This document shows positions 2,619 to 44,378 of a stretch of 64,000 nucleotides of DNA, in pieces. Source of the stretch: Lutibaculum baratangense AMV1 (GTDB taxonomy: Bacteria; Pseudomonadota; Alphaproteobacteria; Rhizobiales; Tepidamorphaceae); assembly GCF_000496075.1 (NCBI RefSeq), contig NZ_AWXZ01000035.1:186001-250000 (forward strand), in the 5' to 3' direction. The translations under genes and the position numbers were made by a program. The first letter of the stretch is position 1. Each line of letters starts with the position of its first letter. A model generated the notes under the pieces. The model had not been told where the DNA came from. It did no database searches and saw only the letters and a list, made by a program, of their open reading frames with translations.

Positions 2619-4517
2619 ATGTCTCGCTTCATGCCGAGCCCGTTCGGCCGAACGCGGTCGATAGGGTTCAAGGCCGCCATCGCCACGGCCGTGCCTGTCC
2701 TCATAGGTATCGCGGCGCTCGTCGCGCTCGAGCTCAAGAATCTCCGTGATTCCGTCTACGAGCAGGCCGAGATGAGCACGTCCGACATCGTCCAGCTGAT
2801 GTCGAACCAGATGGCCGGCGGCGTGAAATGGGGCAAGGCCGATGTCGTCGACAAGGTCTACGCGGATCTCGTCGCCGGCTCGGACAACGAGCTCTCGAAC
2901 CTCCTGGTCCTGAACCGGGACGGGGCTGTCGTGACGAGCTTCGACAGCCCCAGCCTCGCGAGCTTCGGCGCGCTGGCGTCCCTGACGGAAGCATCGGCGG
3001 AGCGGTTGGCCGCCGGCGAGGTGGTGACCGGTTGGGAGGGCGGACATCTCGTCGTCCTCGCGCCGATCATGCCGGGCGGCGAGCGGCTCGGCACGCTGGC
3101 CACGGCCTGGGATCAATCCAGGCTCGAGAGCCTCGCAGCCGACAAGATGATGAAGGGCGCGTTGTTCGGGCTCCTTCTGGCGGCGATGGTCGTGGGTGTC
3201 GTCGCCCTGTTCCTGTCGCGCAGCGTCACCCGGCCGATCCGCGAGGTGACCGACGTCATGACGGCGCTGGCGGCGGGCGACAACCAGGTGACGGTGCCGT
3301 ATGTCGGGCGGTCCGACGAGGTCGGCCGCATGGCCCAGGCGGTCGAGACCTTCAAGCAGGCGGCCGTGGAGAAGCTGCGTGTGGAGGCTGAGGCAGCGGA
3401 GCGGCGGCGGGAGGCCGAGAGCGAGCGGGCGGCGTCCGAGGAGAGCCGGCGTGCGGCCTCCGAGGAGCAGGAGATCGTGGTCGGCGAGATCGGCCGCGGC
3501 CTGTCGCGGCTGTCCGACGGCGATCTCGGCTACCGGATCGCGCGCGCCTTCCCGGCGAATTACGAGCAGCTGAAGGCGGACTTCAACGGCGCGATGGCGC
3601 AGCTCGAGGAGGCGATGCGCACGATCGCGGCCTCGACGACGGCGATCCGCTCGGGCACGGGCGAGATCAGCCAGGCCTCCGACGACCTGTCGCGGCGCAC
3701 CGAGCAGCAGGCGGCGAGCCTCGAAGAGACGGCCGCCGCCCTCGACGAGATCACGGCGACCGTGAAGCGCACGGCGGACGGGGCCGGCCACGCCCGCGAC
3801 GTGGTCGGCCGCACGACGTCGCTCGCCGAGCAGTCGGGCGCGGTGGTCGGCGACGCGGTGAAGGCGATGAGCGGCATCGAGGCGTCCTCGAAGGAGATCT
3901 CGCAGATCATCGGCGTGATCGACGAGATCGCCTTCCAGACGAACCTGCTCGCGCTGAACGCGGGCGTCGAGGCGGCGCGTGCGGGCGACGCCGGCAAGGG
4001 CTTCGCGGTCGTCGCGAGCGAGGTGCGCGCGCTCGCCCAGCGCTCGGCGGAGGCGGCGAAGGAGATCAAGGGCCTGATCGACAACTCGACGGCGCAGGTC
4101 GACCAGGGCGTCGACCTCGTCGCCCGCACCGGCGAGGCGCTGAAGGAGATCGCCGCGCAGGTCGCCGAGATCAACGCCATCGTGCGCGACATCTCGGCCT
4201 CGGCGCAGGAGCAGGCGACCGGCCTCGCCGAGGTCAACACCGCCGTCAACCAGATGGACCAGGTGACGCAGCAGAACGCGGCGATGGTCGAGCAGCAGAC
4301 GGCGGCCTCGCACACGCTGTCCAGCGAGACGGGCGAGCTCGTCCGCCTCGTCTCGCGCTTCCGCCTGACGGGCGAGGCCCGGAAGGCGCATGCCGCAGAG
4401 CCGGCCGAGGCCCGGCGTCCCGCGCCCGCACGGCCGGCCCGGCGCCCGGCCACGCACGGCAACGCCGCCCTCCGCATGGAGCCCGCCAACGAGGACCAGG
4501 GCTGGGAGGAGTTCTGA
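2619..4517 (+). CDS. Methyl-accepting chemotaxis protein with periplasmic sensor domain
   Basis: This 632-residue transmembrane chemoreceptor has TM1 at about residues 13-35, a periplasmic domain of about 140 residues, TM2 at about 180-203, HAMP at about 203-255 and a long cytoplasmic signalling hairpin. The conserved tip EIAFQTNLLALNAGVEAARA lies near residues 430-450. The periplasmic part (QMAGGVKWGKADVVDKVY, then LLVLNRDGAVV) resembles a Cache-like fold. The last five residues are GWEEF, which fits the aromatic-x-x-aromatic tether that recruits CheR/CheB in receptors such as Tar (NWETF). The receptor is probably adapted by the CheR, CheB and CheD encoded downstream. A strong terminator follows at 4562-4600. 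Confidence 0.9.
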   Translation: MSRFMPSPFGRTRSIGFKAAIATAVPVLIGIAALVALELKNLRDSVYEQAEMSTSDIVQLMSNQMAGGVKWGKADVVDKVYADLVAGSDNELSNLLVLNRDGAVVTSFDSPSLASFGALASLTEASAERLAAGEVVTGWEGGHLVVLAPIMPGGERLGTLATAWDQSRLESLAADKMMKGALFGLLLAAMVVGVVALFLSRSVTRPIREVTDVMTALAAGDNQVTVPYVGRSDEVGRMAQAVETFKQAAVEKLRVEAEAAERRREAESERAASEESRRAASEEQEIVVGEIGRGLSRLSDGDLGYRIARAFPANYEQLKADFNGAMAQLEEAMRTIAASTTAIRSGTGEISQASDDLSRRTEQQAASLEETAAALDEITATVKRTADGAGHARDVVGRTTSLAEQSGAVVGDAVKAMSGIEASSKEISQIIGVIDEIAFQTNLLALNAGVEAARAGDAGKGFAVVASEVRALAQRSAEAAKEIKGLIDNSTAQVDQGVDLVARTGEALKEIAAQVAEINAIVRDISASAQEQATGLAEVNTAVNQMDQVTQQNAAMVEQQTAASHTLSSETGELVRLVSRFRLTGEARKAHAAEPAEARRPAPARPARRPATHGNAALRMEPANEDQGWEEF

Positions 4518-4826
4518 TCTCTGCGTGAAGGCCCCCGCCCCGACATAGGCACAGAGTAAGAGGGCGCGGCCGCCATGCACATGGCGCCGCGCCCTTGTTG
4601 CGTCTGCCAGGCGCAGGTCCGGCCGCCGGCGAAGGTTCGCCGACCACCCAAAATTTGCTCCCGAAGCTTCGCCGAAGGCAGAAAGTGCCAAGTGATCCGC
4701 AGATTAAGCCGTTGAGCCATTAGCGGAAATTTAGGCTCTTCCGTGTCACCTATCGGTTGCCGCACCCGCCGATGCTTCGACGGTAAAGGCGGAGCGGGCG
4801 CCCCCGCAGAAAGCGTGGGGCGCGTG
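4518..4826. other. Intergenic region: terminator and leader of the globin receptor
   Basis: About 309 bases separate two receptor genes. The left part holds a terminator hairpin (4562-4600). The right part (about 4690-4826) is slightly AT-richer and could hold the promoter of the globin-coupled receptor, but no convincing -35/-10 pair is seen. The receptor frame is open from 4743 and ATG 4827 is chosen as start because the globin fold begins soon after it. Confidence 0.45.
4562..4600 (+). terminator. Rho-independent terminator after the first chemoreceptor
   Basis: GGGCGCGG (4562-4569) pairs with CCGCGCCC (4587-4594), extended inward by CGCCATG/CATGGCG with a 2-3 base loop, followed by TTGTTG. 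The stem is long and very G+C-rich. It separates the receptor at 2619-4517 from the globin receptor gene. Confidence 0.75.
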
Positions 4827-6353
4827 ATGATCGGGAAGAAATCCGTGGACGTGAAACATCTTCTGGCCGAGCGTCTGAAGTTCATCGAACTCGACGGGGC
4901 CACCTGCGGCGAACTCAGAAAGATCAAGCCGATCCTCGACGAGGAGGTGCCGGCCGCCCTGGCGCTGTTCTACGAGAAAATCGCAGCCGAGCCGGCCGTC
5001 GCGCGGTTCTTTTCGAACCCCGAGCACATGAGCCGCGCCAAGCGCGCGCAGGCCGGTCACTGGTCGAACATCGCGAACGGCGACTTCAACGAGCACTACC
5101 TGGACGGCGTGACGACCGTCGGGAAGACCCATGCGAGGATCGGACTCGAGCCGCGCTGGTACATTGGCGGCTACGCCCTGATCGCCGACGAGGTGATCCG
5201 CGCGCTCGTCCAGAGGTTGCGCTCGCGCTGGGCGTTCCAGGGGCAGGCCCAGGCGGACGCGCTCGGCCGGTCGATCGGCGCCTTCGTGAAGGCCGTCCTG
5301 CTCGACATGGACCTTGCCATCTCCGTCTATATCGAGGCGGCGGAGGAGGCCCGGCGCCGCGAGGAAGAGAAGCGCCACGCTGCGGAAGCGGAGCGGGCCC
5401 AGGCCATGAGCCTGATCGAGGCGGGCCTGGCGCGGCTCGCGCAAGGCGACCTCGCCGTGCGTGTCGAGGGCCCCGTCGCACCGGCTTTCCAGAAGCTCAA
5501 AGACGACTTCAATCACGCCGCGGAACGCCTCGAGGCCGCCATGCAGACGGTGGCGGAGCGCGCCGGCGGTATACGCGCGGCGGCCGGCGAGATCAGCCAG
5601 GCCTCGGGCGACCTCTCGCGTCGCACGGAGACGCAGGCCGCGAGCCTCGAGGAGACCGCGGCGGCGCTCGACGAGATCACGGCCACTGTCCGGCAGACCG
5701 CACAAGGGACCCGGAAGGCCGGCGAAGCCGTCGGCGAGGCGACGAGAGAGGCCGAGGAGAGCGGTCGGGTGGTCGAGCAGGCCGTCACGGCGATGAACGC
5801 GATCGAAGGCTCGGCGAAAGAGATCTCGCAGATCATCGGCGTCATCGACGAGATCGCCTTCCAGACGAACCTTCTCGCGCTGAACGCGGGCGTCGAGGCG
5901 GCCCGCGCCGGCGAGGCCGGAAAGGGCTTCGCCGTCGTCGCGCAGGAAGTCCGTGCGCTCGCGCAGCGCTCGGCCGACGCGGCCCGCGAGATCAAGTCGC
6001 TGATCCAGACGTCGGGTGAGCAGGTCGAGACGGGCGTCGCGCTCGTGGGAAGGACCGGACAGGCGCTGCACCGCATCGTCGACAAGGTCCAGAGCATCAA
6101 CGGGCTCATCTCCACGATTGCGTCGTCCACGGCCGAGCAGGCGACGGGGCTCGGCGAGGTGAACACGGCCGTCAACCAGATGGACCAGGTGACGCAGCAG
6201 AACGCCGCGATGGTCGAGGAGGCGACGGCCGCCTCCCAGAGCCTCGCGAAGGACGCTGCGGAATTGTCCCGCCTCGTTGCGCAGTTCCGCCTCGGCGCCG
6301 CGGCCGGGCGGTCCGACGACATGGCGCGGCCGCGCCTGCGCCGGGCGTCCTGA
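4827..6353 (+). CDS. Globin-coupled aerotaxis chemoreceptor (HemAT-like)
   Basis: This is a cytosolic 508-residue receptor with no membrane segment. Residues about 8-160 are a protoglobin-type sensor globin. THARIGLEPRWYIGGYALIA carries the proximal haem-ligand His102 and the GLxPxWY signature of globin-coupled sensors such as HemAT. A short linker (residues about 175-195, EEARRREEEKRHAAEAERAQ) leads to the MCP signalling hairpin with tip EIAFQTNLLALNAGVEAARA near residue 345. In the family, oxygen binding to haem changes CheA activity and drives aerotaxis. ATG 4827 is preferred over an upstream in-frame ATG at 4743. The C-terminus (RPRLRRAS) lacks the GWEEF tether of the two neighbouring receptors. 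Confidence 0.92.
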   Translation: MIGKKSVDVKHLLAERLKFIELDGATCGELRKIKPILDEEVPAALALFYEKIAAEPAVARFFSNPEHMSRAKRAQAGHWSNIANGDFNEHYLDGVTTVGKTHARIGLEPRWYIGGYALIADEVIRALVQRLRSRWAFQGQAQADALGRSIGAFVKAVLLDMDLAISVYIEAAEEARRREEEKRHAAEAERAQAMSLIEAGLARLAQGDLAVRVEGPVAPAFQKLKDDFNHAAERLEAAMQTVAERAGGIRAAAGEISQASGDLSRRTETQAASLEETAAALDEITATVRQTAQGTRKAGEAVGEATREAEESGRVVEQAVTAMNAIEGSAKEISQIIGVIDEIAFQTNLLALNAGVEAARAGEAGKGFAVVAQEVRALAQRSADAAREIKSLIQTSGEQVETGVALVGRTGQALHRIVDKVQSINGLISTIASSTAEQATGLGEVNTAVNQMDQVTQQNAAMVEEATAASQSLAKDAAELSRLVAQFRLGAAAGRSDDMARPRLRRAS

Positions 6354-6355
6354 GG

Positions 6356-6661
6356 ATGGCGACCTTCGTCGCATGGTGCGCCGGCGCGGCGATGGCCTCG
6401 GCGACGCTCGCCGTCGCTCTCGCCGCGCCCGTGCCGTCCGACGCTCGCGCGGTGGCCGCGGTCTTCCCGCCCTGGTGGACGGTCGAGAGGGCCTACGCCG
6501 CAGCGAGTGACGCCGGACACGTTCTGGGGCCCGGCATGTGGAGGAACGTGCTCGTGCTGCGGCCTTCCGAGGATCTGGCATCCCGCCTGTCGGCGATGGG
6601 TGCCTGGATCGTGGTCGATGCCGACATGCTTGGTTGCAGCCCGCAGGAAGCGGGCACGTGA
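6356..6661 (+). CDS. Small exported or membrane-anchored protein with FPPWW motif, function unknown
   Basis: This 101-residue protein begins two bases after the stop of the globin receptor and ends just upstream of the next receptor, so it is almost certainly co-transcribed with both. Residues 4-24 (FVAWCAGAAMASATLAVALAA) form a signal peptide or single membrane helix. The rest has VFPPWWTVERAYAAA, then NVLVLRPS and a short ending with one Cys. I recall similar small FPPWW proteins in related bacteria without an assigned role. Its position between two chemoreceptors suggests an accessory periplasmic role in receptor sensing, which is inference. Confidence 0.6.
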   Translation: MATFVAWCAGAAMASATLAVALAAPVPSDARAVAAVFPPWWTVERAYAAASDAGHVLGPGMWRNVLVLRPSEDLASRLSAMGAWIVVDADMLGCSPQEAGT

Positions 6662-6675
6662 AGGGGGAGGCGGGG

Positions 6676-8358
6676 GTGCTCAATTTCAATGCTCAGAGAC
6701 GGCGCGGCACCGTGCTCGTCTGCGCGCTCGTATGGCTGCAAGTGCCGCTCGTCGCCGCCATCGCCGCGGCCACGGCAGGCGCGATCCTCTTGCCGGTCGC
6801 AGCGGCGATCTCCGTCGCCGGCCTCTGCACCTTCGCCGTGTACGCCACGCAGGCCGCGCAGACCTCGCGCATCCTGCTCGGCGTCGCGCTGATGGGCCTG
6901 ATCTCGACCGAGGTGGCGCTCCTGGCGGGCAACCCGCTGCAGGTCGACATGCACATGTACTATTTCGCCGCGCTGGCGGTGCTGATGGTCATGCTGGACT
7001 GGCGGGTGATCGCCGCCGGCGCGGCGACGGTCGCCGCGCATCACGTCGTGCTGAATTTCGCGCTGCCGGCGATGATCTATCCCGGCGGAGGCAGCCTCGT
7101 TCGCCTTTCGATGCACGCGGTGATCCTCGTCGTCGAGGCGGTGGCACTCGTCTGGCTCGCCTTCACGCTGACGCGGATGTTCGCGGCCCTCGCCAGGGAG
7201 CGGGAAGTGGCCGAAGAGAGCCGCCGCGCGGCCGAGGAGGCCCGTCGCGAGGCGGAGGCGATGGGCGAGGCGGCCGCACGCGAGCAGACCCAGACGGCGG
7301 CGCTCCGTCAGGAGGCGTCGGACAAGCAGGCGGTGGTCGTCGGGGGGCTCGCGGAGGCGCTGCGGCGGCTGGCCGAGGGCGAACTTACCTACAGGCTCCG
7401 CCAGGACTTTCCGGACGAGTATGCCGCGCTGCGCGACGACTTCAATGCGGCGCTGGAACGGCTCCAGGCGACGATGCAGGCGGTGGCGACCTCGAGCGGG
7501 CAGGTTTCCTCGGGCAGCGGCGAGATCCAGCAGGCCTCGAACGACCTCTCGCGCCGGACGGAGACGCAGGCCGCGAGCCTCGAGGAGACGGCGGCCGCGC
7601 TCAACCAGACGACGGACGCGATCCGCAAGGCCGCCGGCAACATGCGCCAGGCCTCGCAGGTGATGCAGCAGGCGAAGGCCGACGCGCAGGCCGGCGGCGC
7701 CATCGTCAACCGGGCGGTCGAGGCGATGGCCTCCATCGAGAGCTCGTCCGCGCAGATCGGCAAGATCATCGGCCTGATCGACGAGATCGCCTTCCAGACG
7801 AACCTTCTCGCGCTCAATGCCGGCGTCGAGGCAGCCCGGGCCGGGGAGGCCGGCAAGGGGTTCGCCGTGGTGGCGCAGGAGGTGAGGGCGCTCGCGCAGC
7901 GCTCGGCCGACGCCGCCCGCGAGATCGGCGAGCTGATCGAGGCGTCCGCGCGCCACGTGGAGTCGGGCGCGGGTCTCGTCGGCGAAAGCGGCGACGCGCT
8001 TGGGCGCATCGTCGAGCGGGTCGTGCTGCTCGACGGCCTGATCGCGGAGATTTCACGGTCCGCCGAAGAACAGTCGACCGGACTCGGCGAAATAAGTTCC
8101 GCTGTTAACCAGATGGATCAAGTCACTCAACAGAATGCGGCCATGGTCGAGCAGACGAGCGCGGCGAGCGAATCGTTGAGCCGGGAGGCCCAGCGACTGG
8201 CGAAGCTGATCGAGGCCTTCAAGGTCGGCGGCGCGCGGGCATCGGCAGGTTCGACCGCAACGCGGGGAAGCCGAAGCGTGCGCGTGACCTCGGGCCGGTC
8301 CGCGGCCGCCGCGGTTTCCGCCGTCACGGCCGACGAAGCTGGATGGGAAGAGTTCTAG
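6676..8358 (+). CDS. Chemoreceptor with multi-span membrane sensor domain
   Basis: A 560-residue receptor starts at GTG 6676, placed by the AAGGGGGAGG ribosome binding site at 6661-6670. The first 170 residues form about five or six hydrophobic helices with almost no periplasmic loop, then a charged helix (EEARREAEAMGEAAAREQ) leads into an MCP signalling hairpin with tip EIAFQTNLLALNAGVEAARA. The membrane part contains His93 (VDMHMYYFAALAVL), the pair His122-His123 (ATVAAHHVVLN) and His147 (LSMHAVIL). It ends in GWEEF, the same CheR/CheB tether as the first receptor. It is the first gene of the che operon proper, the place taken by icpA or mcpA in Sinorhizobium and Caulobacter. Its stimulus is unknown. 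Confidence 0.88.
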   Translation: MLNFNAQRRRGTVLVCALVWLQVPLVAAIAAATAGAILLPVAAAISVAGLCTFAVYATQAAQTSRILLGVALMGLISTEVALLAGNPLQVDMHMYYFAALAVLMVMLDWRVIAAGAATVAAHHVVLNFALPAMIYPGGGSLVRLSMHAVILVVEAVALVWLAFTLTRMFAALAREREVAEESRRAAEEARREAEAMGEAAAREQTQTAALRQEASDKQAVVVGGLAEALRRLAEGELTYRLRQDFPDEYAALRDDFNAALERLQATMQAVATSSGQVSSGSGEIQQASNDLSRRTETQAASLEETAAALNQTTDAIRKAAGNMRQASQVMQQAKADAQAGGAIVNRAVEAMASIESSSAQIGKIIGLIDEIAFQTNLLALNAGVEAARAGEAGKGFAVVAQEVRALAQRSADAAREIGELIEASARHVESGAGLVGESGDALGRIVERVVLLDGLIAEISRSAEEQSTGLGEISSAVNQMDQVTQQNAAMVEQTSAASESLSREAQRLAKLIEAFKVGGARASAGSTATRGSRSVRVTSGRSAAAAVSAVTADEAGWEEF

Positions 8359-8370
8359 GGGAAGAAGACT

Positions 8371-8667
8371 GTGGAATCCCGGATCCAAGACAAGGCAGAG
8401 ACGCTGCGCCTGCCGCCAATACTCGACCTCAAGGCCGCAGCACCTCTGCGGGAGCAGTTGCTGGGCCTGCGGGGCAAGCCGGTGGAGCTGGACGGCGCGG
8501 AGGTCCAGCGGCTCGGCGGGCTGTGTCTGCAGGTCCTGCTGTCGGCGCGCGACAGCTGGCACAACGACGGACTGCCGTTCTCCCTGGGCGCGGCCAGCGA
8601 GGCTTTCGACCAGTCCCTAAGCCTGTTCGGCGTGCATGCCGACGAATTTCAGTCATCAGGAGTGTGA
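8371..8667 (+). CDS. STAS-domain chemotaxis protein (CheS/CheX position)
   Basis: A 98-residue protein starting at GTG 8371, 12 bases after the receptor stop. It shows the STAS pattern: ILDLKAAAPLREQLLGLRGK, then PVELDGAEVQRLGGLCLQVL with the central loop where anti-sigma antagonists carry Ser/Thr (here RLGG, so no obvious phosphosite). The gene lies between the receptor and cheY1, exactly where Sinorhizobium has cheS (a helper of CheA that speeds CheY1 dephosphorylation) and Caulobacter has cheX. By position it is likely a CheA/CheY1 accessory. Sequence alone supports only the STAS fold. Confidence 0.75.
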   Translation: MESRIQDKAETLRLPPILDLKAAAPLREQLLGLRGKPVELDGAEVQRLGGLCLQVLLSARDSWHNDGLPFSLGAASEAFDQSLSLFGVHADEFQSSGV

Positions 8668-8670
8668 CCA

Positions 8671-9036
8671 GTGTCGATGACCATCCTGACGGTCGACGAT
8701 TCTAGGACCATGCGCGACATGCTGAAGATGTCGCTCCTCAGGGCCGGCTTCACGGTCGTACAGGCCGAAGACGGCGTGCACGGTCTCGAGGTGCTGCAGG
8801 AACAGCATGCCGACGTGATCATCACCGACATCAACATGCCGCGGATGGACGGCTTCGGCTTCATCGAGGGCGTGCGCGGCAAGGACGCCTTCAAGGCGAC
8901 GCCGATCCTCGTGCTCACGACGGAAGGCGACCCGGAGAAGAAGGCGCGCGCCAAGCAGGCGGGCGCGAGCGGCTGGATCGTCAAGCCGTTCAATCCGGAA
9001 AAGCTGATCGACGCCATCAGGCGCGTGGCCGCCTGA
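8671..9036 (+). CDS. cheY: Chemotaxis response regulator CheY (first copy)
   Basis: A single receiver domain of 121 residues, with acidic pair Asp9-Asp10, phospho-acceptor Asp53 (IITDINMPRMDGF), Thr83 and Lys105 (IVKPFNP). Start is GTG 8671 or ATG 8677. In rhizobial two-CheY systems the copy next to cheA usually acts as a phosphate sink, while the CheY encoded near cheB controls the motor. Which role applies here is inferred from position. It lies three bases after the STAS gene and 32 bases before cheA. Confidence 0.93.
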   Translation: MSMTILTVDDSRTMRDMLKMSLLRAGFTVVQAEDGVHGLEVLQEQHADVIITDINMPRMDGFGFIEGVRGKDAFKATPILVLTTEGDPEKKARAKQAGASGWIVKPFNPEKLIDAIRRVAA

Positions 9037-9068
9037 GCCAGGGCGGCCGCCACGGGGGGACTTAGGGC

Positions 9069-11411
9069 ATGGATCCATTCGAGGAAATCAAGGACACCTT
9101 CTTCCAGGAGTGCGACGAACAGCTCTCCGAACTGGAAGCGGGTCTCCAGGCGATGAAGGACGGGGCGGGTGACGACGATACCGTCAACGCCGTGTTCCGG
9201 GCGGTGCACTCCATCAAGGGAGGCGCGGGCGCGTTCGGCCTGGAGGATCTCGTCCGGTTCGCCCACACGTTCGAATCCGTCCTGGACGAGGTGCGCGGCG
9301 GCAGGCTGGCCGCGGATGCCGACCTCCTGAACCTGATGCTCACGTCCTCCGACATGCTGTCCGACCACGTGCGGGCAGCCCGCGGCGGCGAGCCGGCCGA
9401 TCCGGAGCGCAGCCAGAGCCTCGTGCAGCAGCTCGACGCCCGCCGGCTCGGCGGTGCCGCACCCGCGCCTCAGCCCGCCCCGGCCCAGGGCTCCCGCCCG
9501 GGGCCCGTCCTGACCCCCGGTGTCTCGGAGGACGGCGGCATCGAGGGCTTCGACTTCACGCCCGTGGTCATGGCGTTCGACGTGGACGACGAGGCGTCGC
9601 AGACCGAAGAGCCTGAGCTTCCGATCCTCGCCGAGCCCGAGGTCGCGGACGCCAGGCCGAGCTGGCAGATCAGCTTCCGCCCGAAGGCCGCCCTCTACGC
9701 CTCCGCCAACGAGCCGGCGGTGCTCCTGCGCGAGCTCGGCCGCCTCGGCGAGATGAGCGTGCGCCTCGAGGCCGGAGCCCTGCCGCTGCTCGAGGACATG
9801 GAGCCGGAGGAGAGCTACCTCGCCTGGTCGATTCAGTTGGCAACCGAGGCCGGCCGGGACGAGATCGCCGAGATTTTCGAATTCGTCGAGGACGACTGCG
9901 ACCTCGGCATTACCCTGATCGGAGAGGCTTCCGGAGAGGCCGAGGCGGCGGAGCCGATCGAGGCCTTCGAGCCGGAAGGGGAGTTCCCCGCGCCCGAGGC
10001 CGCGCCCGACGTCGAGGCGCTGATCGCGATGGCGCAGGCGATGAGCGAGCCCGAGCTCCATGTCGAGGAGCCTGCCCCGCAGCCCGCCCCTGCCGCGGCG
10101 CTGCCGGCGGCGCCCGCAGCCGAGCAGCCGGCCGCCGCGGAGAAGGAAGCCGGCGGCGCGGCAAAGGCGGCGACGCAGCAATCTGCCCAGCAGTCGGCCC
10201 AGCCGACCCAGACGATCCGCGTCGAGCTCGAGCGTGTCGACCGGCTGATCGACCTCGTGGGCGAGCTCGTCATCAACCAGGCGATGCTGGCGCAGCGGGT
10301 CTTCGAGTCGGGCGCCGCGCGGAACTCCGACGTCGCGCTCGGTCTCGACGACCTCGAGCACCTGACGCGCGACATCCAGGAAAGCGTGATGGCGATCCGC
10401 GCGCAGCCGGTGCGGTCGGTGTTCCAGCGCATGCCGCGGCTCGTGCGCGAATGCGCGGCGATGACCGGCAAGCAGGTGCGCCTCGAGATGGAAGGCGAGG
10501 GCACCGAGGTCGACAAGACGGTGGTCGAGCGCCTGTCGGAGCCGATCACCCACATGATCCGCAACGCGATCGACCACGGCCTCGAGTCCACGGCCGACCG
10601 CGTGGCCGCGGGCAAGGCGGAGGAGGGCGTCGTCACGCTCTCCGCCAGGCACCGCAGCGGCCGGATCGTCATCGAGGTCGCCGACGACGGCAAGGGCATC
10701 AACCGCAAGGTCGTCCGCCAGAAGGCGATCGAGAAGGGGCTGATCGAGCCAGACCAGCAGCTCTCCGACGAGGAGACGGACAACCTGATCTTCCTGCCGG
10801 GCTTCTCGACGGCGAACGAGATCTCCGACCTGTCCGGCCGCGGCGTCGGGATGGACGTGGTGCGCCGCTCGATCCAGTCGCTCGGCGGCCGCATCTGGAT
10901 CACCTCGCGGCCCGGCTACGGCTCGACCTTCACGATGAGCCTGCCGCTGACGCTCGCCGTGCTCGACGGCATGGTGGTGACGGCGGGCGGGCAGACCCTC
11001 GTGACGCCGCTCGCGACGATCCTCGAGACGCTTCAGCCGAAGCAGGCCGACCTGCGCCGGCTCGGGCCGAACTCGTGGGTGATCGCGATCCGCGACACCT
11101 ACGTGCCGTTGATCGACGTCGGCTGCGTCCTCGGCTACCGGGACCAGCCGCTCAGGCCCGGCGAGGGCGTGGCGCTGCTGATCGAGGCGGAGGGTGGCGG
11201 GCGCGCGGCCTTCCTCGTCGACGCGATCCAGGGCCAGCGCCAGGTCGTGATCAAGAGCCTCGAGCAGAACTACCGCAAGGTCGAAGGCATCGCGGCCGCC
11301 ACGATCCTCGGCGACGGGCGGGTGGCGCTCATCCTCGACGTCGACGCGATCCTCGCCAAGCGCAAGCACGACGCTCCCCAGACGAACACCCTCATGGCAG
11401 CAGTGGGGTAA
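9069..11411 (+). CDS. cheA: Chemotaxis histidine kinase CheA
   Basis: 780 residues with the full CheA layout: P1 HPt domain with His47 ([13 protein letters not shown]); an Ala/Pro linker; a P2-like regulator-docking domain at about 195-290 ([37 protein letters not shown]); a second Ala/Pro-rich linker; P3 dimerisation helices with [14 protein letters not shown] near 380-400; the ATPase with N box [12 protein letters not shown] near 495, G1 ADDGKGIN and G2 GRGVGMDVV; and a P5 CheW-like domain from about 625. It autophosphorylates in response to receptor arrays and donates phosphate to both CheYs and CheB. Confidence 0.97.
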
Positions 11412-36554: not shown

Positions 36555-37946
36555 ATGTCACCGCGACACAAGATCCTCGTCACCTTCGCCGCGGCGGCAC
36601 TCCTGCCCTTCGCCGCGCCGGGGCAGGCGATGGCGCAGGCGCTGAGAGGGCCGCTCCTGCCGCAGGTGGGCCTGGAGACGCTGCGCGGCGGTCTGGCCGC
36701 GTCTGCGGCGGCGGAGGAGGGGGTGGCCGCCACCACCACCGCCACGACACCCGCCGGTTCGGCGCCTTCGCAGGACGAGGCGGACGAGGCTCCTCAGCCC
36801 GCCCCGGCCGACGACGACCCGTACGCGCCGCTCGGCATCCGGCTCGGCAGCTTCCTGCTCTATCCCTCGCTCACCATCGTGGGCGGCCACAGCAGCAACA
36901 TCGATCTCGCCGAGGATCCCGTCTCCGGAAGCTTCTACTCGCTGCGCCCCGAGCTCGAGCTCCGCTCCGACTGGAGCCGCCACGAGCTCGCCGCCCGGCT
37001 CGCGGCCGACACGGAGTTCGACGACGACGGCGACACGACGACCAGCCTCGACAGCGAACTCGCCCTGCGCCTCGATCTCGTCCGCAGCCTCGTGGCGGAC
37101 CTGCGCGCGACCTACAACCTCGCGCCCGAGGCCTTGAGCGATCCCGATCTGCCGGCGGACGCGGTCGAGCGGCCGGATGTCGAGACATACGGCGTGTCGG
37201 CCTCGCTGTCGGACACGTTCGGCCGGGTCGGCCTGACCGGCAGCCTGTCCTACGAGGCCCACCGCTACGAGGACGCGCGCCTGTCTGACGGGTCGCTCTT
37301 CGACAACAGCGACCGCAACTACGACGAGACCGGGGCGAGGCTGCGGGCCAGCTACGACGTGGGCGCGTCGGTCGGCGTCTTCGTCGAAGGCGGCGTGAAC
37401 GAGCGTGACTACGAGCGGGAGGTGGACGACAACGGCATCCGCCGCGGATCGAGCGGCTACGAGGTGCTCGCGGGGCTGACGCTGGCACGCGGCGAGGTGC
37501 TCGAGGGCGAGCTCGGGATCGGCTACCAGCGGCAGACGCCGGTCGACGACAGCCTGGAGGACGTGGAGGGCCTTCTCTATCGCGGCTCGCTCGCCTGGCG
37601 CCCCACGGCGCTGACGACGCTGCGGCTCCAGGGCGAGCTGCGGCCGGAGGAGACGGTGCTGGAGCCCGGCGCGTCCGGCATCCGCACCGCGACGCTCGGC
37701 CTTTCGGTCGAGCACGCCCTGCGGCGCAACCTGCTCGTCGTCGCGACGCTGGGGGCCGAGCGCGCGGACTATGTCGGCGTGCCGCGCCTCGAGAAGAGCT
37801 ACACGGCCGCTCTCGAGGTCGACTACGCGATGAACCGCTTCATGTCGTGGCGGGCGGGCGTCGGCCACACGCGCCGCGACAGCAATGTCGACGGGTCCGA
37901 CTACGAGGAGACGCGCGTGGAGGCCGGCGTCACGCTCAGGCGCTGA
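36555..37946 (+). CDS. Outer-membrane beta-barrel protein
   Basis: 463 residues. A signal peptide ending AMAQA near residue 29 is followed by an Ala/Thr/Pro/Asp-rich low-complexity linker (about 45-92). From LGSFLLYPSLTIVGGHSSNI onward there are repeating amphipathic strands to the end (GVTLRR, then stop), consistent with a BBP2-type barrel of about 14-18 strands. Such proteins are often near exopolysaccharide genes and may be export or assembly porins. Here galU and galE follow. No enzymatic motif is seen. Confidence 0.75.
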   Translation: MSPRHKILVTFAAAALLPFAAPGQAMAQALRGPLLPQVGLETLRGGLAASAAAEEGVAATTTATTPAGSAPSQDEADEAPQPAPADDDPYAPLGIRLGSFLLYPSLTIVGGHSSNIDLAEDPVSGSFYSLRPELELRSDWSRHELAARLAADTEFDDDGDTTTSLDSELALRLDLVRSLVADLRATYNLAPEALSDPDLPADAVERPDVETYGVSASLSDTFGRVGLTGSLSYEAHRYEDARLSDGSLFDNSDRNYDETGARLRASYDVGASVGVFVEGGVNERDYEREVDDNGIRRGSSGYEVLAGLTLARGEVLEGELGIGYQRQTPVDDSLEDVEGLLYRGSLAWRPTALTTLRLQGELRPEETVLEPGASGIRTATLGLSVEHALRRNLLVVATLGAERADYVGVPRLEKSYTAALEVDYAMNRFMSWRAGVGHTRRDSNVDGSDYEETRVEAGVTLRR

Positions 37947-37969: not shown

Positions 37970-38851
37970 TCAGCCGCGGCCCGACAGGATCGTGTCGATC
38001 ATCGCCTTCAGGTCGTCGGCCAGCTCCGGCCTGTCGAGCCCGTAGGCGACGTTCGCGGCGAGGAAGCCGATCTTCGAGCCGCAGTCATAGGTCGTGCCGT
38101 CGAACTTCAGGCCGTGGAAGGGCCGCGTCTCCATCAGGCGCTGCATCGAGTCCGTGATCTGGATCTCGCCGCCCGCCCCCTTCTCCTGGTTCTCGAGGAG
38201 GCCGAAGATCTCCGGCTCGAGGATGTAGCGCCCGGTGATGATGAGGTTCGACGGCGCCTCCTCCGGCTTCGGCTTCTCGACCATGCCGGTCACCTCGAAG
38301 GCACGGCCTTTCGTCTCGCCGACCGAGACGACGCCGTAGCTCGAGACCTTCGCCGGATCGCACTCCTCGACCGCGATCACGTTGCCGCCGCCGACCTCGT
38401 TGTAGACGTCGACCATCTGCGAGAGGCAACTGGGGCTCGCCTTCACGAGCACGTCGGGGAGGATGAGGGCGAAGGGCTCGTCGCCGACGAGCTCGCGGGC
38501 GCACCACACGGCGTGGCCGAGGCCGAGCGGGGCCTGCTGGCGGGTGAAGCTCGTCGCGCCGGCGGGCGGCAGGTCGCGCGCGAGGAGGTCGAGCTCCTTC
38601 GTCTTGCCGCGCTCCTTCAGCGTCATCTCGAGCTCGGGCTGGACGTCGAAATGATCCTCGATGATCTGCTTGTTGCGCCCCGTCACGAAGATGAAGTCCT
38701 CGATCCCGGCCTCCCGCGCCTCGTCGACGACGTGCTGGATCAGCGGCCGGTCGACCACCGTCAGCATCTCCTTCGGCATCGCCTTCGTGGCGGGCAGGAA
38801 GCGGGTGCCGAGACCGGCGACGGGAAACACGGCCTTGCGGATCGGTCGCAT
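37970..38851 (-). CDS. galU: UTP--glucose-1-phosphate uridylyltransferase GalU
   Basis: 293 residues of the GT-A nucleotidyltransferase fold: KAVFPVAGLGTRFLPATKAM (UTP-binding loop), KEMLTVVDRPLIQHVVDEA, LGHAVWCARELVG, FALILPDVLV and MVEKPKPEEAPSNL. It makes UDP-glucose for surface polysaccharides, glycolipids and osmoregulated glucans. It is convergent with the barrel gene and divergent from galE, which interconverts its product. Confidence 0.96.
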   Translation of the reverse strand: MRPIRKAVFPVAGLGTRFLPATKAMPKEMLTVVDRPLIQHVVDEAREAGIEDFIFVTGRNKQIIEDHFDVQPELEMTLKERGKTKELDLLARDLPPAGATSFTRQQAPLGLGHAVWCARELVGDEPFALILPDVLVKASPSCLSQMVDVYNEVGGGNVIAVEECDPAKVSSYGVVSVGETKGRAFEVTGMVEKPKPEEAPSNLIITGRYILEPEIFGLLENQEKGAGGEIQITDSMQRLMETRPFHGLKFDGTTYDCGSKIGFLAANVAYGLDRPELADDLKAMIDTILSGRG

Positions 38852-39011: not shown

Positions 39012-40007
39012 ATGGCGATCCTGGTGACGGGCGGAGCGGGCTATATCGGCAGCCACATGGTCCTGGCGCTCCTCGATGCCGGCGAGGAGGTGGTCGTCAT
39101 CGACAATCTCAGCACCGGCTTCCAGTGGGCGGTGCCGCCGCGAGCGCGTCTCGTCGAGGCCGACATCGCCGACGAGGCCGCGGTGGACGGGCTTCTGTCC
39201 GGCGGCGGGATCGAGGCGATCATCCATTTCGCGGGGTCGATCGTCGTGCCGGACTCGATCGCCGACCCCCTCGGCTACTACCTCAACAACACGGTGAAGA
39301 CGCGCGGCCTGATCGCCGCCGCCGTCCGCCACGGGGTCAAGCGCTTCATCTTCTCCTCCACGGCCGCCGTCTACGGCATGCCGGAGGAGAACCCGGTCGT
39401 CGAGACGGCCCGCCTTCGACCGATCTCGCCCTACGGCTCCTCCAAGCTGATGAGCGAGATCATGCTCGCCGATGCGAGCGTCGCGCACGACTTCTCCTAT
39501 GTCGCGCTGCGCTATTTCAACGTGGCGGGGGCGGATCCCGGCGGCCGGAGCGGCCAGTCGACGCCGCGCGCGACCCATCTCATCAAGGTCGCCTGCGAGA
39601 CCGCGCTCGGGCGTCGCGAGAAGCTGTCGGTCTACGGCACCGACTACGACACGCCGGACGGCACCTGCATCCGCGACTACATCCACGTGAGCGATCTCGC
39701 CGCGGCCCACCTCCTGGCGCTCGGCCACCTGAGGGCGGGCGGGGCCAGCGAGGTCATGAACTGCGGCTACGGCCGCGGCTACTCCGTGCGCGAGGTGATA
39801 GGGGCGGTGAACCGGGCCGCCGGCCACGAGATCCCGGTCGAGTTCACCGGGCGCAGGCCCGGCGATCCCGCCGCGCTCGTCGCGAGGGCCGACCGGGTGC
39901 GCGACGTCCTGGGATGGCGGCCGGCCCACGAGGATCTCGACGGGATCGTGGCGAGCGCGCTCGCCTGGGAGCGCGATCTTCCGGACCGGAAGCGCCAGGC
40001 GAACTGA
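39012..40007 (+). CDS. galE: UDP-glucose 4-epimerase GalE
   Basis: 331 residues of the extended SDR family: ILVTGGAGYIGSHMVLALL (NAD-binding GxxGxxG), HFAGSIVVPDSIADPLGYY, FSSTAAVYGMPE, the catalytic Tyr-Lys in SPYGSSKLMSE, RYFNVAGADPGGRSG and YDTPDGTCIRDYIHVSDLA. It interconverts UDP-glucose and UDP-galactose. Start ATG 39012 follows GGAAAGAGGAAGAAA. Together with galU it supplies sugar nucleotides. Confidence 0.96.
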   Translation: MAILVTGGAGYIGSHMVLALLDAGEEVVVIDNLSTGFQWAVPPRARLVEADIADEAAVDGLLSGGGIEAIIHFAGSIVVPDSIADPLGYYLNNTVKTRGLIAAAVRHGVKRFIFSSTAAVYGMPEENPVVETARLRPISPYGSSKLMSEIMLADASVAHDFSYVALRYFNVAGADPGGRSGQSTPRATHLIKVACETALGRREKLSVYGTDYDTPDGTCIRDYIHVSDLAAAHLLALGHLRAGGASEVMNCGYGRGYSVREVIGAVNRAAGHEIPVEFTGRRPGDPAALVARADRVRDVLGWRPAHEDLDGIVASALAWERDLPDRKRQAN

Positions 40008-40119: not shown

Positions 40120-41367
40120 ATGACCTGGCTCGGCCAGTGGAAATACCTTGGCGGCAAGTCCGCGCTGCGCTCGATCGTTGTGGGCGCGGGCCTCGTTTTG
40201 TTCAGCTTCGGGTCGGCGATGGCAGCACAGAGCTTCGAGGCCTGGCGCGACGGCTTCCAGGCCCAGGCGCGGCAGGCCGGAGTCTCGGCCGAGACGTTCC
40301 GCCGCGCCTTCGAGGGCGTGACGCCGGACCCGGCGGTCCTCGAGGCGGCGAACCGGCAGGCCGAGTTCGTGAAGCCGATCTGGGAGTACCTCGAGTCCGC
40401 CGTCTCGAACAGCCGCATCGAGACGGGCCGCCAGATGCTGCAGCGCTACGACCGGGAGATGGCCGAGATCGAGCGCCGCTACGGCGTCAGCCGCTACGTC
40501 TTCACCGCGATCTGGGGCATGGAGTCGTCCTACGGCGCCGTCCTCGACAACCACAAGGTCGTGCGGCCGGTCATCCGTTCGCTCGCGACGCTCGCCCACG
40601 GCGATCCGAAGCGGGCGGAGTTCGCCCGGACGCAGCTGATCGCGGCGCTGAAGATCCTGCAGAACGGCGACGTCCACCCCTCGCGCATGATGGGGTCCTG
40701 GGCCGGCGCCATGGGGCACACCCAGTTCATCCCCACGACCTACGAGGCCTATGCCGTCGACTTCACCGGCGACGGCCGCCGCGACATCTGGGACAGCGTG
40801 CCCGACGCGCTCGCCTCGACGGCGAACTACCTGAAGAACAGCGGCTGGGCCGACGGCGAGACGTGGGGCTACGAGGTGAACCTGCCGCGCGGCTTCGATT
40901 TCGGCCTCGCCGACGAGCAGACGAAGCGCAGCGTCACCGAGTGGGAGTATCTCGGCGTGCGCCGCACCCACGCGCGCGACTTCCCGCGGCCCAACGACCA
41001 GGCGGTTCTGATGCTGCCGGCCGGCGCGAACGGCCCCGCCTTCCTGATGCTCAGGAACTTCAACGCCATCAAGCGCTACAACAACGCCACGTCCTACGCG
41101 CTCGGCGTCGGTCACCTGGCGGACCGGCTCGCCGGCGGCGGCACCTTCGCCCAGAGCTGGCCGACGCAGGACCAGCCGCTCACGCGCACCCAGAAGGAGG
41201 AGATGCAGCGCCTCCTGTCGAGCCGCGGCTTCGATCCCGGCGGCGTCGACGGCCAGGTCGGGCCGATGACCCGCTCGGCCATCCGCTCCTTCCAGGGGCG
41301 CTCCGGCCTACCCGCGGACGGCTATCCGAGCTATAGTCTCCTGGAGCGCCTGCGGACGGGAAGCTGA
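40120..41367 (+). CDS. Lytic murein transglycosylase (MltB family) with peptidoglycan-binding domain
   Basis: 415 residues. The N-terminal hydrophobic stretch SIVVGAGLVLFSFGSAMAA is a signal sequence without a lipobox Cys. The SLT_2/MltB domain spans about 40-330 with catalytic Glu135 in AIWGMESSYGAV, plus GAMGHTQFIPTTYEAYAVDF and DGRRDIWDSVPDALASTANY. Residues about 345-410 are a PG_binding_1 domain (LLSSRGFDPGGVDGQVGPMT). It cleaves glycan strands with 1,6-anhydro ends in the periplasm. Confidence 0.94.
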   Translation: MTWLGQWKYLGGKSALRSIVVGAGLVLFSFGSAMAAQSFEAWRDGFQAQARQAGVSAETFRRAFEGVTPDPAVLEAANRQAEFVKPIWEYLESAVSNSRIETGRQMLQRYDREMAEIERRYGVSRYVFTAIWGMESSYGAVLDNHKVVRPVIRSLATLAHGDPKRAEFARTQLIAALKILQNGDVHPSRMMGSWAGAMGHTQFIPTTYEAYAVDFTGDGRRDIWDSVPDALASTANYLKNSGWADGETWGYEVNLPRGFDFGLADEQTKRSVTEWEYLGVRRTHARDFPRPNDQAVLMLPAGANGPAFLMLRNFNAIKRYNNATSYALGVGHLADRLAGGGTFAQSWPTQDQPLTRTQKEEMQRLLSSRGFDPGGVDGQVGPMTRSAIRSFQGRSGLPADGYPSYSLLERLRTGS

Positions 41368-41412: not shown

Positions 41413-42855
41413 ATGAAATGGACCGGCAGCCACGCGCTCTCGGTCGTCGCGATCGCGCTGGCCGCCTGTCTGGCGGCCGGCGCACCGGACGCCGCGGCCC
41501 AGGAGCAGGGCCCGCGAAACCCGATCTCCTCCTTCTTCAACGCGATCTTCGGCGGCGGGCAGCAGCAGCGCCAGCAGCAACACTACGAGAACCCCAACCG
41601 GCGGCCGAGCGACCTCGTGCCGAACCGGCGCCCCTCCGAGAGGCGGACGGAGCAGCGCCGGAGCCGCCCCCAGCCGCAGCAGAGCGCCCCGCGCCGTTCC
41701 TCCACCCAGGCCGCGAGCGCCCCCGCTCCGAAGACGACGAAGAACCCCGACGCCATGAAGGTCGTCGTGTTCGGCGACGCCTTCGCCAGCGGCCTCGCGA
41801 AGGGGCTCGAGGACGCGTTCGCGGAGAATGCGGATCTCGTCGTCGTCGCCCGAGGCGAGGAAGGTCTCGGGCTGGCCGGCGCGGCACCCAACAGCCTGAA
41901 GGCGAAGGTCGACGCCTATATCGCCGAGGCGACGGAAGAGGCCCGGACGAAGGCCGCGGCCGCGGTTGCGGCCAAGGCGGAGGCGGAAGCCAGGGCGAAA
42001 GCCGAGGCCGAGGCTCAGGCCCAGGCAGAGGCCGCGGACGAGCCTGATGCTGCATCTGACGGCGCCGAGCTCGTGGCGGATCCGGACGCTCCCGGCGAGA
42101 CCGAAGGGGCCGGCGACGCCGCGCCCGTCGTCGAGGCGAGGCCGGATATCGGCGCGGCAGTCGTCATGGTCGGGATGGGGGATCGCACGCCCATCACCAC
42201 GGCCGACGGTTCGGTCGCCTTCGGCACCGAGATGTGGCGCGACCTCTACTCCCAGCGCGTCGAGGCCCTGATGGAGACGTTCACCACGGCCGGCATCCCC
42301 CTCTACTGGGTGGGGCTGCCGCCGGTGGAGGATTCGCGGCTCAGCGCGGAGCTCGGCTTCTTCAACGAGGTCTTCCGCATGCGCTCGTACAGGGCCGGCG
42401 CGGAGTTCGTCGACATCTGGAACGGCTTCGTCGACGCCAACAACGCCTACGCGCAGAGCGGCCCCGACATCAAAGGCGAGATCCGCGAGCTCCGGACCGG
42501 CGATGGCGCCGGCTTCACCGTCGCCGGCAACCGCAAGCTCGCTCACTTCGTGGCGCGCGAGATCAGGCGGGACTTCGTGCGGGAAGGCGAGGTCGTCACC
42601 GACGTCACCGTCATGTCGCGTGCCGGGCCACGCCCCTTCATGCCGAGCGAGGAGATGCGCAGGACGGGCCGCGGCGAGGTCGTGAACCTGAACGGCCTGT
42701 CGGGCACCGGCCTCTTGGCGGGCGGCCTCGACGAGGGGCCGACACCCCCGGAGAATTCGGCCTATCGGAAGGTCATCCTGCAGGGGCACACGCTGCCGCC
42801 GGAGAGCGGCCGTTCGGACGACTTCTCCTGGCCGCGCGAACCCGCCGGCGGGTGA
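41413..42855 (+). CDS. Exported DUF459/SGNH-like protein lacking the catalytic residues
   Basis: 480 residues with a signal peptide ending AAA-QEQG near residue 32, then a Gln/Arg/Pro-rich linker (about 48-113). The SGNH fold is recognisable: KVVVFGDAFASGLAKGL (block I), AAVVMVGMGD (block III) and FTVAGNRKLAHFVAREI (block V). The nucleophile Ser is Ala123 (GDA for GDS), the block III Asn is Gly256 (GMGD for GxND) and the block V His is Gly367 (DGAGFT for DGxHFT). An Ala/Glu-rich helical insert spans about 171-235. It is probably a binding protein or scaffold of the cell wall rather than an esterase. A terminator follows. Confidence 0.75.
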   Translation: MKWTGSHALSVVAIALAACLAAGAPDAAAQEQGPRNPISSFFNAIFGGGQQQRQQQHYENPNRRPSDLVPNRRPSERRTEQRRSRPQPQQSAPRRSSTQAASAPAPKTTKNPDAMKVVVFGDAFASGLAKGLEDAFAENADLVVVARGEEGLGLAGAAPNSLKAKVDAYIAEATEEARTKAAAAVAAKAEAEARAKAEAEAQAQAEAADEPDAASDGAELVADPDAPGETEGAGDAAPVVEARPDIGAAVVMVGMGDRTPITTADGSVAFGTEMWRDLYSQRVEALMETFTTAGIPLYWVGLPPVEDSRLSAELGFFNEVFRMRSYRAGAEFVDIWNGFVDANNAYAQSGPDIKGEIRELRTGDGAGFTVAGNRKLAHFVAREIRRDFVREGEVVTDVTVMSRAGPRPFMPSEEMRRTGRGEVVNLNGLSGTGLLAGGLDEGPTPPENSAYRKVILQGHTLPPESGRSDDFSWPREPAGG

Positions 42856-42956: not shown

Positions 42957-44378
42957 CTATCGCGGGAGCGACGTCTTGCCCATCAGCGCCTTGTCGATCG
43001 AGTGCGCGGCCTGCCGGCCCTCGCGAATCGCCCAGACGACGAGGGACTGGCCGCGGCGCATGTCGCCGGCCGCCCAGACCTTCGGGTGCGAGGTCAGATA
43101 GGCCATCGTGTCGGCCTTCACGTTGCCGCGCTGGTCGAGCTCGAAGCCCATCGTCTCGACGAGCCCCTCGGTGACCGGCCCGGCGAAGCCGATCGCGAAG
43201 AAGACGAGGTCGGCCTTGATGTAGAAGTCCGTGCCCTCGATCGGCTTGCGCTTCTCGTCGACGCGGATGCAGTGAACCCGCTTGACCCGCCCGTTGCGCC
43301 CTTCGATGCCGAGCGTCGCGGCCGAGAACTCCCGCTCCGCGCCCTCCGCCTGGCTCGACGACGTGCGGAACTTCGTCGGCCAGTAGGGCCACACGAGGAG
43401 CTTGTCCTCGTTGACCGGCGGGATCGGGCGGATGTCGAGCTGGGTCACCTGCACGGCGCCCTGCCGGAAGGCGGTGCCGACGCAGTCCGACGCCGTGTCG
43501 CCGCCGCCGATCACCACCACGTGCTTGCCGCCGGCGAGGATCGGTGCGCCGTCGATCTGCTCGTTGCCGATGCGCCTGTTCTGCTGCACGAGATAGGGCA
43601 TGGCGTAGTGCACGCCCTCGAGCTCGCCGCCCGGCAGGCCCGGGTCGCGCGGCCGCTCCGCGCCGCAGGCCAGAAGCACGGCGTCGTGGCCCTCGACGAG
43701 CTCCTCGACGTCGACGTTCACGCCGATATTCGCGCCGTAGTGGAAGGTCACGCCTTCCGCTTCCATCTGCGCGACCCGGCGGTCGATATAGTGCTTCTCC
43801 ATCTTGAAGTCCGGGATGCCGTAGCGCAGCAGGCCGCCGGCCCTCATCTCACGCTCGTAGAGATGCACGTCGTGGCCGGCACGCGCGAGCTGCTGCGCGC
43901 CCGCGAGGCCAGCCGGCCCCGATCCGATCACCGCGACCTTCCTGCCAGTCTTGTGCTTCGGCGGCTCCGGCCGGATCCAGCCTTCCTGGAAGGCCCGGTC
44001 GGCGATCACCTGCTCGATGCACTTGATCGAGACGGGCGTGTTCTCGAGGTTCAGCGTGCACGCCTCCTCGCAAGGGGCGGGGCAGATGCGGCCCGTCACC
44101 TCGGGGAAGTTGTTCGTCGAGTGCAGGTTGCGCGAGGCCTCCTCCCAGTCCCCGGCATAGACGAGATCGTTCCAGTCGGGGATCTGGTTGTTGACCGGGC
44201 AGCCCTGCGGCCCGTGGCAGAAGGGGATGCCGCAATCCATGCAGCGCGCCGCCTGGCGGCGCACCTCCGGCTCCTCCATCGGCAGCGTGAACTCGCCGAA
44301 ATGGCGGATGCGGTCGGATGCCGGCTGGTACTTCAGATCCTGCCGGTCGATCTCGAGGAAGCCCGTTACCTTGCCCAT
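42957..44378 (-). CDS. gltD: Glutamate synthase (NADPH) small subunit GltD
   Basis: 473 residues. N-terminal [4Fe-4S] cysteines lie in AARCMDCGIPFCHGPQGCP. The FAD site is VAVIGSGPAGLAGAQQLARA, the NADPH site HVVVIGGGDTASDCVGTAFR, and the end KVWAAGDMRRGQSLVVWAIR is the second FAD contact. It passes electrons from NADPH to the large subunit for glutamate formation. It lies 10 bases downstream of gltB on the same strand. Confidence 0.96.
   Translation of the reverse strand: MGKVTGFLEIDRQDLKYQPASDRIRHFGEFTLPMEEPEVRRQAARCMDCGIPFCHGPQGCPVNNQIPDWNDLVYAGDWEEASRNLHSTNNFPEVTGRICPAPCEEACTLNLENTPVSIKCIEQVIADRAFQEGWIRPEPPKHKTGRKVAVIGSGPAGLAGAQQLARAGHDVHLYEREMRAGGLLRYGIPDFKMEKHYIDRRVAQMEAEGVTFHYGANIGVNVDVEELVEGHDAVLLACGAERPRDPGLPGGELEGVHYAMPYLVQQNRRIGNEQIDGAPILAGGKHVVVIGGGDTASDCVGTAFRQGAVQVTQLDIRPIPPVNEDKLLVWPYWPTKFRTSSSQAEGAEREFSAATLGIEGRNGRVKRVHCIRVDEKRKPIEGTDFYIKADLVFFAIGFAGPVTEGLVETMGFELDQRGNVKADTMAYLTSHPKVWAAGDMRRGQSLVVWAIREGRQAAHSIDKALMGKTSLPR

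Follow-up and report, generated by a model that had tools for sequence, protein, structure and literature searches.

The DUF459 protein encoded beside mltB in Lutibaculum baratangense AMV1, within the 64,000-nucleotide stretch of DNA analysed here (the window), has lost the Ser, Asn and His residues of the SGNH active site, and its status as a pseudoenzyme is supported by alignment to homologues. Judged from sequence comparisons, it is the extreme of an order-wide pattern of loss in Hyphomicrobiales, which an earlier note on this DNA had missed. Since the losses recur and yet the fold, a C-terminal tail and the Asp of block V are kept, the protein is rather likely to be a retained pseudoenzyme with a non-catalytic periplasmic role in wall remodelling. 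The gene, its neighbours and the parts of its product are as follows.

37970–38851, minus strand: galU/exoN2-like uridylyltransferase, a conserved neighbour
39012–40007, plus strand: galE-like epimerase, a conserved neighbour with a homologue beside the locus in other genomes
40120–41367, plus strand: mltB-type lytic transglycosylase (SLT_2 and PG_binding_1), 45 bp upstream of the DUF459 gene
41413–42855, plus strand: DUF459/PatB-like pseudoenzyme CDS, 480 aa (ORF reading, Pfam and GC by codon position)
41413–41502, plus strand: signal-like N-terminus, residues 1–30 (sequence reading; hydrophobic stretch)
41773–41787, plus strand: block I, GDAFA, residues 121–125, with Ala123 at the nucleophile position (alignment to homologues)
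41863–41886, plus strand: degenerate block II, residues 151–158, in which the relatives' motif SSGLVRDDYxxW is gone except for Gly153
41887–42135, plus strand: insert region between blocks II and III, residues 159–241 (AlphaFold model; block spacing)
42172–42186, plus strand: block III, GMGDR, residues 254–258, with Gly256 at the oxyanion Asn position (alignment to homologues)
42502–42519, plus strand: block V, DGAGFT, residues 364–369, with Asp364 retained and Gly367 at the His position
42757–42837, plus strand: conserved C-terminal tail module ending in GRSDDFSWPRE, residues about 449–475 (tail alignments, pattern and model)
42957–44378, minus strand: gltD, glutamate synthase small subunit, a conserved convergent neighbour

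The GC contents at codon positions 1, 2 and 3 of the ORF at 41413–42855 are 71, 53 and 91%, backing the coding frame. The product exceeds the Pfam gathering score of DUF459 (PF04311), with 160.3 bits against a cut-off of 27.2 (E = 4.7e-47), and so belongs to the family by homology; it also matches the NCBIfam PatB model under that model's cut-off. A sequence search against solved structures at E ≤ 0.001 matched only the PatB/DUF459 entries 8gr2, 8tlb, 7trr and 7tjb. The ORF, listed as two pieces, is the only DUF459 gene in the genome. Its nearest relatives are about 50% identical, and the nearest named locus is that of a Tepidamorphus MAG (L040). A single-protein scan of genome contigs confirmed no relatives, and the relatives were gathered by an alignment-based scan, which gave 80 named loci. 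The protein appears to be an exported or secreted SGNH-fold relative of a cell-wall acetylating enzyme. The sequence LAAC at residues 16–19 (window positions 41458–41469) is also lipobox-like, so that the protein could be a lipoprotein rather than soluble.

In an AlphaFold prediction from 40 sequences, residues 111–389 are modelled well except for a disordered part of the insert. This predicted core has the SGNH alpha/beta/alpha fold of the PatB type and superimposes on 8tlb with a Z score of 24.8 and an rmsd of 2.8 Å over 203 aligned residues; the best Foldseek neighbours are the same PatB entries (E = 1e-13 to 5e-11). Together with the DUF459 match, the model bears out the claim of the earlier note that the fold blocks are recognisable.

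A functional SGNH or PatB enzyme has a Ser nucleophile in block I, an oxyanion-hole Asn in block III and an Asp and a His in block V. The earlier note had read GDA, GMGD and DGAGFT as replacements of Ser, Asn and His, and assignment by alignment to homologues, beyond inspection by eye, places Ala123, Gly256 and Gly367 at these three positions. Block II, which reads GLGLAG in place of SSGLVRDDYxxW, adds to the losses, and the block V Asp is kept as Asp364. The sole His of the domain, H378, is not a substitute base, because 13 of 19 intact orthologues have it too. As the alignment reads, the window protein cannot act by a Ser-His-Asp mechanism. A different enzymatic activity through other residues, such as Asp364 or residues from elsewhere, is improbable. 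The block V Asp is present in 79 of 84 representatives, many further positions are conserved, and PatB itself has a non-canonical oxyanion hole according to the excerpted text of PMC12148441, all of which would suit such an activity; against it, H378 is shared with intact orthologues, and the residues that replace Ser across the family are diverse (F, A, T, N, E, G, L, R, Y, D, W and I), with a new nucleophile fixed in none. The earlier proposal of a switch from hydrolase to binding function stands as regards the pseudoenzyme, but its term hydrolase should be replaced: PatB, the nearest relative with a characterised activity, is an O-acetyltransferase and no hydrolase.

Nearly every member of the order has DUF459, which was found in 366 of the 397 Hyphomicrobiales genomes searched. 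One genome from each of 45 families was surveyed, and one was unscorable at Ser. Of the remaining 44 families, 28 lack Ser, 24 lack His and 16 lack Asn; 30 lack Ser or His, 8 lack all three, and 9 have the trio intact. A single genome per family can mislead, as seen in the family f29, where the representative (L160) is dead, yet eight other loci in the tree (L010–L013, L015, L016, L027 and kin) are intact. A tree built from 87 representatives without the three catalytic columns requires at least 22 changes at Ser, 19 at His and 17 at Asn. Nearly all pairs of Ser and His losses on the tree run in the same direction; with a median p of 0.06 on supported branches, their co-loss is not significant and was rejected as a pattern. 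Because nine families remain intact, some lineages may still need catalysis.

The earlier note had proposed an orthologue alignment to see whether the losses are fixed. Within the GTDB family of the window, none of the six scored full-length relatives has an intact trio, but the order is mixed, with 9 of the 44 families intact. The Ser, Asn and His positions of these six relatives read FNH (L003 and L004), FNR (L005), SNN (L006), FNN (L007) and ING (L008). The window protein groups with L003, L004, L005 and L007 (support 96), and since this nearest clade is all Phe at the Ser site, the Ser loss is probably shared with it and predates the split of the window lineage. The Asn loss would be the window lineage's own, and His is mixed in the clade; this order of events is what we infer from the sequences.

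Outside Hyphomicrobiales, the catalytic residues persist. DUF459 was found in 22 of 289 alphaproteobacterial genomes drawn, and the trio is complete in all 19 scorable loci of other orders, which come from 7 families. Counted by family, all 7 are intact in other orders versus 9 of 44 in Hyphomicrobiales (Fisher p about 1e-4, with families that are not fully independent). Among Hyphomicrobiales homologues with neither tail nor adjacent MltB, 10 of 11 are intact, three of the 11 being tandem copies in one genome. Because the other-order loci and all but one of these off-locus homologues are intact, the intact state is most likely ancestral and the loss concentrated at the MltB locus of Hyphomicrobiales. 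One locus, L184 (genome G025, 4538–10097), has MltB followed by two DUF459 genes, of which one is intact without the tail and the other has Ser changed to Thr and has the tail, which suggests a duplication that split catalysis from the tail. Seven Bradyrhizobium DUF459 genes (L047, L053, L054, L069, L097, L100 and L118), alongside which MltB was not found, have a common, different C-terminus past the tail and partly lost catalytic residues; they may be second copies.

Structural residues are retained regardless of catalytic state, as are the block V Asp and the GRADDFSWP-like tail. Conservation reaches 85% or more in 33 columns of the 83 tail-bearing representatives; the window protein deviates in two of them, the block II Trp and a Gly, and keeps the other 31. 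This bears on the alternative that the window copy is decaying under relaxed selection on its way to becoming a pseudogene. The window protein is the most damaged of its family, with the trio and block II lost and a low-complexity insert, as such decay would produce. Nevertheless, the retained columns and tail, the intact 480-aa ORF with its strong codon-position GC bias, the confident AlphaFold core, and the recurrence of same-site losses in most sampled families while the gene persists make decay improbable. Recurrent loss with conservation of the rest suggests a non-enzymatic job in cell-wall maintenance.

The tail is a module of 35 residues whose G, G, R, D, D, F and W columns do not vary among 31 aligned tails picked as clear examples. 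A loose tail pattern occurs in 148 of 165 ORFs, 120 of which have lost at least one catalytic residue, as against 170 of 3300 trials with shuffled tails; by family, a loose pattern is present in 44 of 45. In each of 10 genomes, a tail model gives exactly one strong match, and each of these lies in the DUF459 ORF. Across the 289 class genomes it matches in only 2, both Hyphomicrobiales, and misses the related tails of other orders; GRADDW, GRADDL or GRSDDW tails, read by eye, are present on intact DUF459 proteins of other orders (L205–L209, L214 and L216), with no MltB within about 1.5 kb of these loci. Since intact homologues of other orders without MltB nearby have the tail, it is not a marker of the pseudoenzyme, its specificity to the order was likewise rejected, and it is probably older than the catalytic losses. 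The evidence for an FFxxLFGG-like motif conserved at the N-terminus (47 of 137, versus 414 of 2740 shuffles) is too weak for a claim.

The locus order galU-(galE)-mltB-DUF459-gltD-gltB is found in Kaistia, a Rhodobiaceae MAG and Methylobacterium, and Shinella and Sinorhizobium have the same order without galE. With its galU/galE-mltB-DUF459-gltDB order and its tail, the window gene falls within this MltB-linked Hyphomicrobiales group, whose members, such as those of Kaistia (L076), Rhodobium (L079) and Sinorhizobium (L201), are orthologous by synteny and tail. Unlike the window protein, most of the others keep the Asn and the block II Trp, and some are fully intact (SNH in L079). Beyond galU, a plus-strand ORF at 36555–37946 may match an outer membrane beta-barrel protein near the S. 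meliloti locus (L203, 1483–2919).

Experimental evidence comes from S. meliloti. In a Tn-seq study (mBio 2017), insertions in the transglycosylase gene smc04024 and the hydrolase gene smc04025, which are among six peptidoglycan genes so affected, reduce competitiveness under NCR247, and the effect with polymyxin B is not significant, as stated in the portions of PMC5539429 at hand. SMc04023 is the UTP-glucose-1-phosphate uridylyltransferase ExoN2 (PMC4941405, in excerpt). Since the Sinorhizobium locus (L201) has galU, mltB, DUF459, gltD and gltB in order, smc04025 is taken, by synteny and not by accession, as the orthologue of the window gene. The Sinorhizobium DUF459 protein reads GDF and DGIN (L201 and L203), with Ser changed to Phe and His to Asn, and smc04025 would thus lack both residues. 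This phenotype is the strongest indication that such a protein is of use without SGNH catalysis, with the proviso that the insertions may be polar between smc04024 and smc04025. In S. meliloti Ak57 (L203, 5431–6731) the DUF459 gene, whole in Sinorhizobium L201, lies in two frames and is unannotated, through either a sequencing error or a real break. The named S. meliloti Rgs polar-growth proteins were rejected as candidates, none being described as SGNH or DUF459 in the excerpted PMC7327166, as was the anhydroMurNAc deacetylase MdaA, a NodB/CE4 enzyme of another family (PMC10838918, likewise in excerpt). A search of open-licence PMC text found no study of Hyphomicrobiales DUF459.

The earlier note had suggested that the protein regulates the neighbouring lytic transglycosylase. 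In its specific form, a dedicated regulator or adaptor would bind the adjacent MltB, perhaps via the tail or the helical insert, and set where and when MltB cuts. Of 44 decidable family representatives, 38 have MltB directly upstream of the DUF459 gene and on the same strand (it is near in 1 and absent in 5), the Tn-seq phenotype is common to smc04024 and smc04025, and MltB carries a peptidoglycan-binding domain; the linkage and the shared phenotype are circumstantial support. The two are not an obligate pair, however. In G003 and G007 (same family), G032 and G221, DUF459 is kept at a locus without MltB, with other MltB_2 genes in the genomes, and G054 (98% complete) has no MltB_2 match genome-wide and retains the DUF459 domain and the tail. 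The window genome has three MltB_2 genes. Agrobacterium MltB3 (Atu3779) was considered as a candidate for the adjacent transglycosylase, but its published start sequence, as given in the excerpted PMC9238390, has no match in 394 genomes, among which C58 is probably not included. The tail, moreover, occurs in other orders without MltB nearby. As for the insert, the spacing from the block II Gly to the block III Asn position is 103 in the window protein versus 31–36 in 162 of 165 scored ORFs, the remaining outliers being L048 (40) and L044 (71). The insert reported earlier as a 65-residue Ala/Glu-rich helix is real but, by this spacing, nearer 70 residues, and it is predicted to form one Ala/Glu-rich helix (159–207) and a disordered acidic stretch (210–241). 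None of the other scored MltB-linked proteins has a 70-residue insert and, being unique to the window among the 165 ORFs, it cannot serve a conserved MltB contact. In the L044 ORF of Rhodoplanes tepidamans (3758–5491), the stretch from block II to block III has lengthened independently of that in the window protein. The protein may regulate MltB directly, but a dedicated MltB regulator is the less probable account.

PatB of N. gonorrhoeae (7tjb, 7tlv and 7trr) and C. jejuni (8tlb and 8gr2), which is of the same DUF459 family and fold and gives the best sequence and structure matches, is likewise periplasmic and wall-related. A review, in the text excerpted, describes DUF459 as the PatB O-acetyltransferase family with conserved catalytic machinery (PMC9487903). 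The window protein differs from PatB in lacking the Ser nucleophile, Asn and His, in adding the C-terminal tail and helical insert, and in the position of its gene beside mltB and gltDB. Furthermore, MBOAT (PF03062, the PatA partner) has no match at E ≤ 0.001 in the window genome, and is present in 4 of 8 genomes of the GTDB family; its absence from the window genome argues against a PatAB-type O-acetylation role for the window protein. EnvC/NlpD-type LytM factors are catalytically dead wall proteins that regulate hydrolases. They likewise put a degenerate periplasmic enzyme fold to a non-catalytic wall role, but their fold is unrelated to that of the window protein, and their regulation of hydrolases is here an analogy only. 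The idea of catalytically dead wall proteins regulating hydrolases appears in the abstract of PMC8416486.

These observations lead to a plausible course for the retained, non-catalytic wall protein favoured here. The Hyphomicrobiales branch to which it belongs has lost the catalytic residues many times and kept the fold, the block V Asp, other positions and the GRADDFSWP-like tail. Most likely, peptidoglycan or a partner still binds in the former O-acetyltransferase cleft and a partner docks on the tail, which would make the protein an adaptor in the wall-remodelling pathway that MltB also serves; MltB as the direct partner is the least certain step. In the window lineage, the cleft is the most decayed, with a helical insert added beside it.

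More tentatively, and with somewhat less than even confidence, the family may be regarded as a 'pseudo-PatB', an order-wide wall factor derived from an O-acetyltransferase fold in which catalysis is dispensable and the binding cleft and GRADDFSWP tail are the essential parts. Together with lytic transglycosylases, such a factor would shield the wall from threats such as host NCR peptides, and the window protein would be its most extreme, fully dead form. The whole order has recurrently lost the DUF459 catalytic machinery at one conserved locus, and the annotation 'SGNH/GDSL hydrolase' would be wrong for most sampled families. The finding yields a non-catalytic wall factor that can be tested, in an order some of whose members grow from the pole, and published Tn-seq (PMC5539429, in the portions at hand) ties this factor to survival against symbiotic host peptides.
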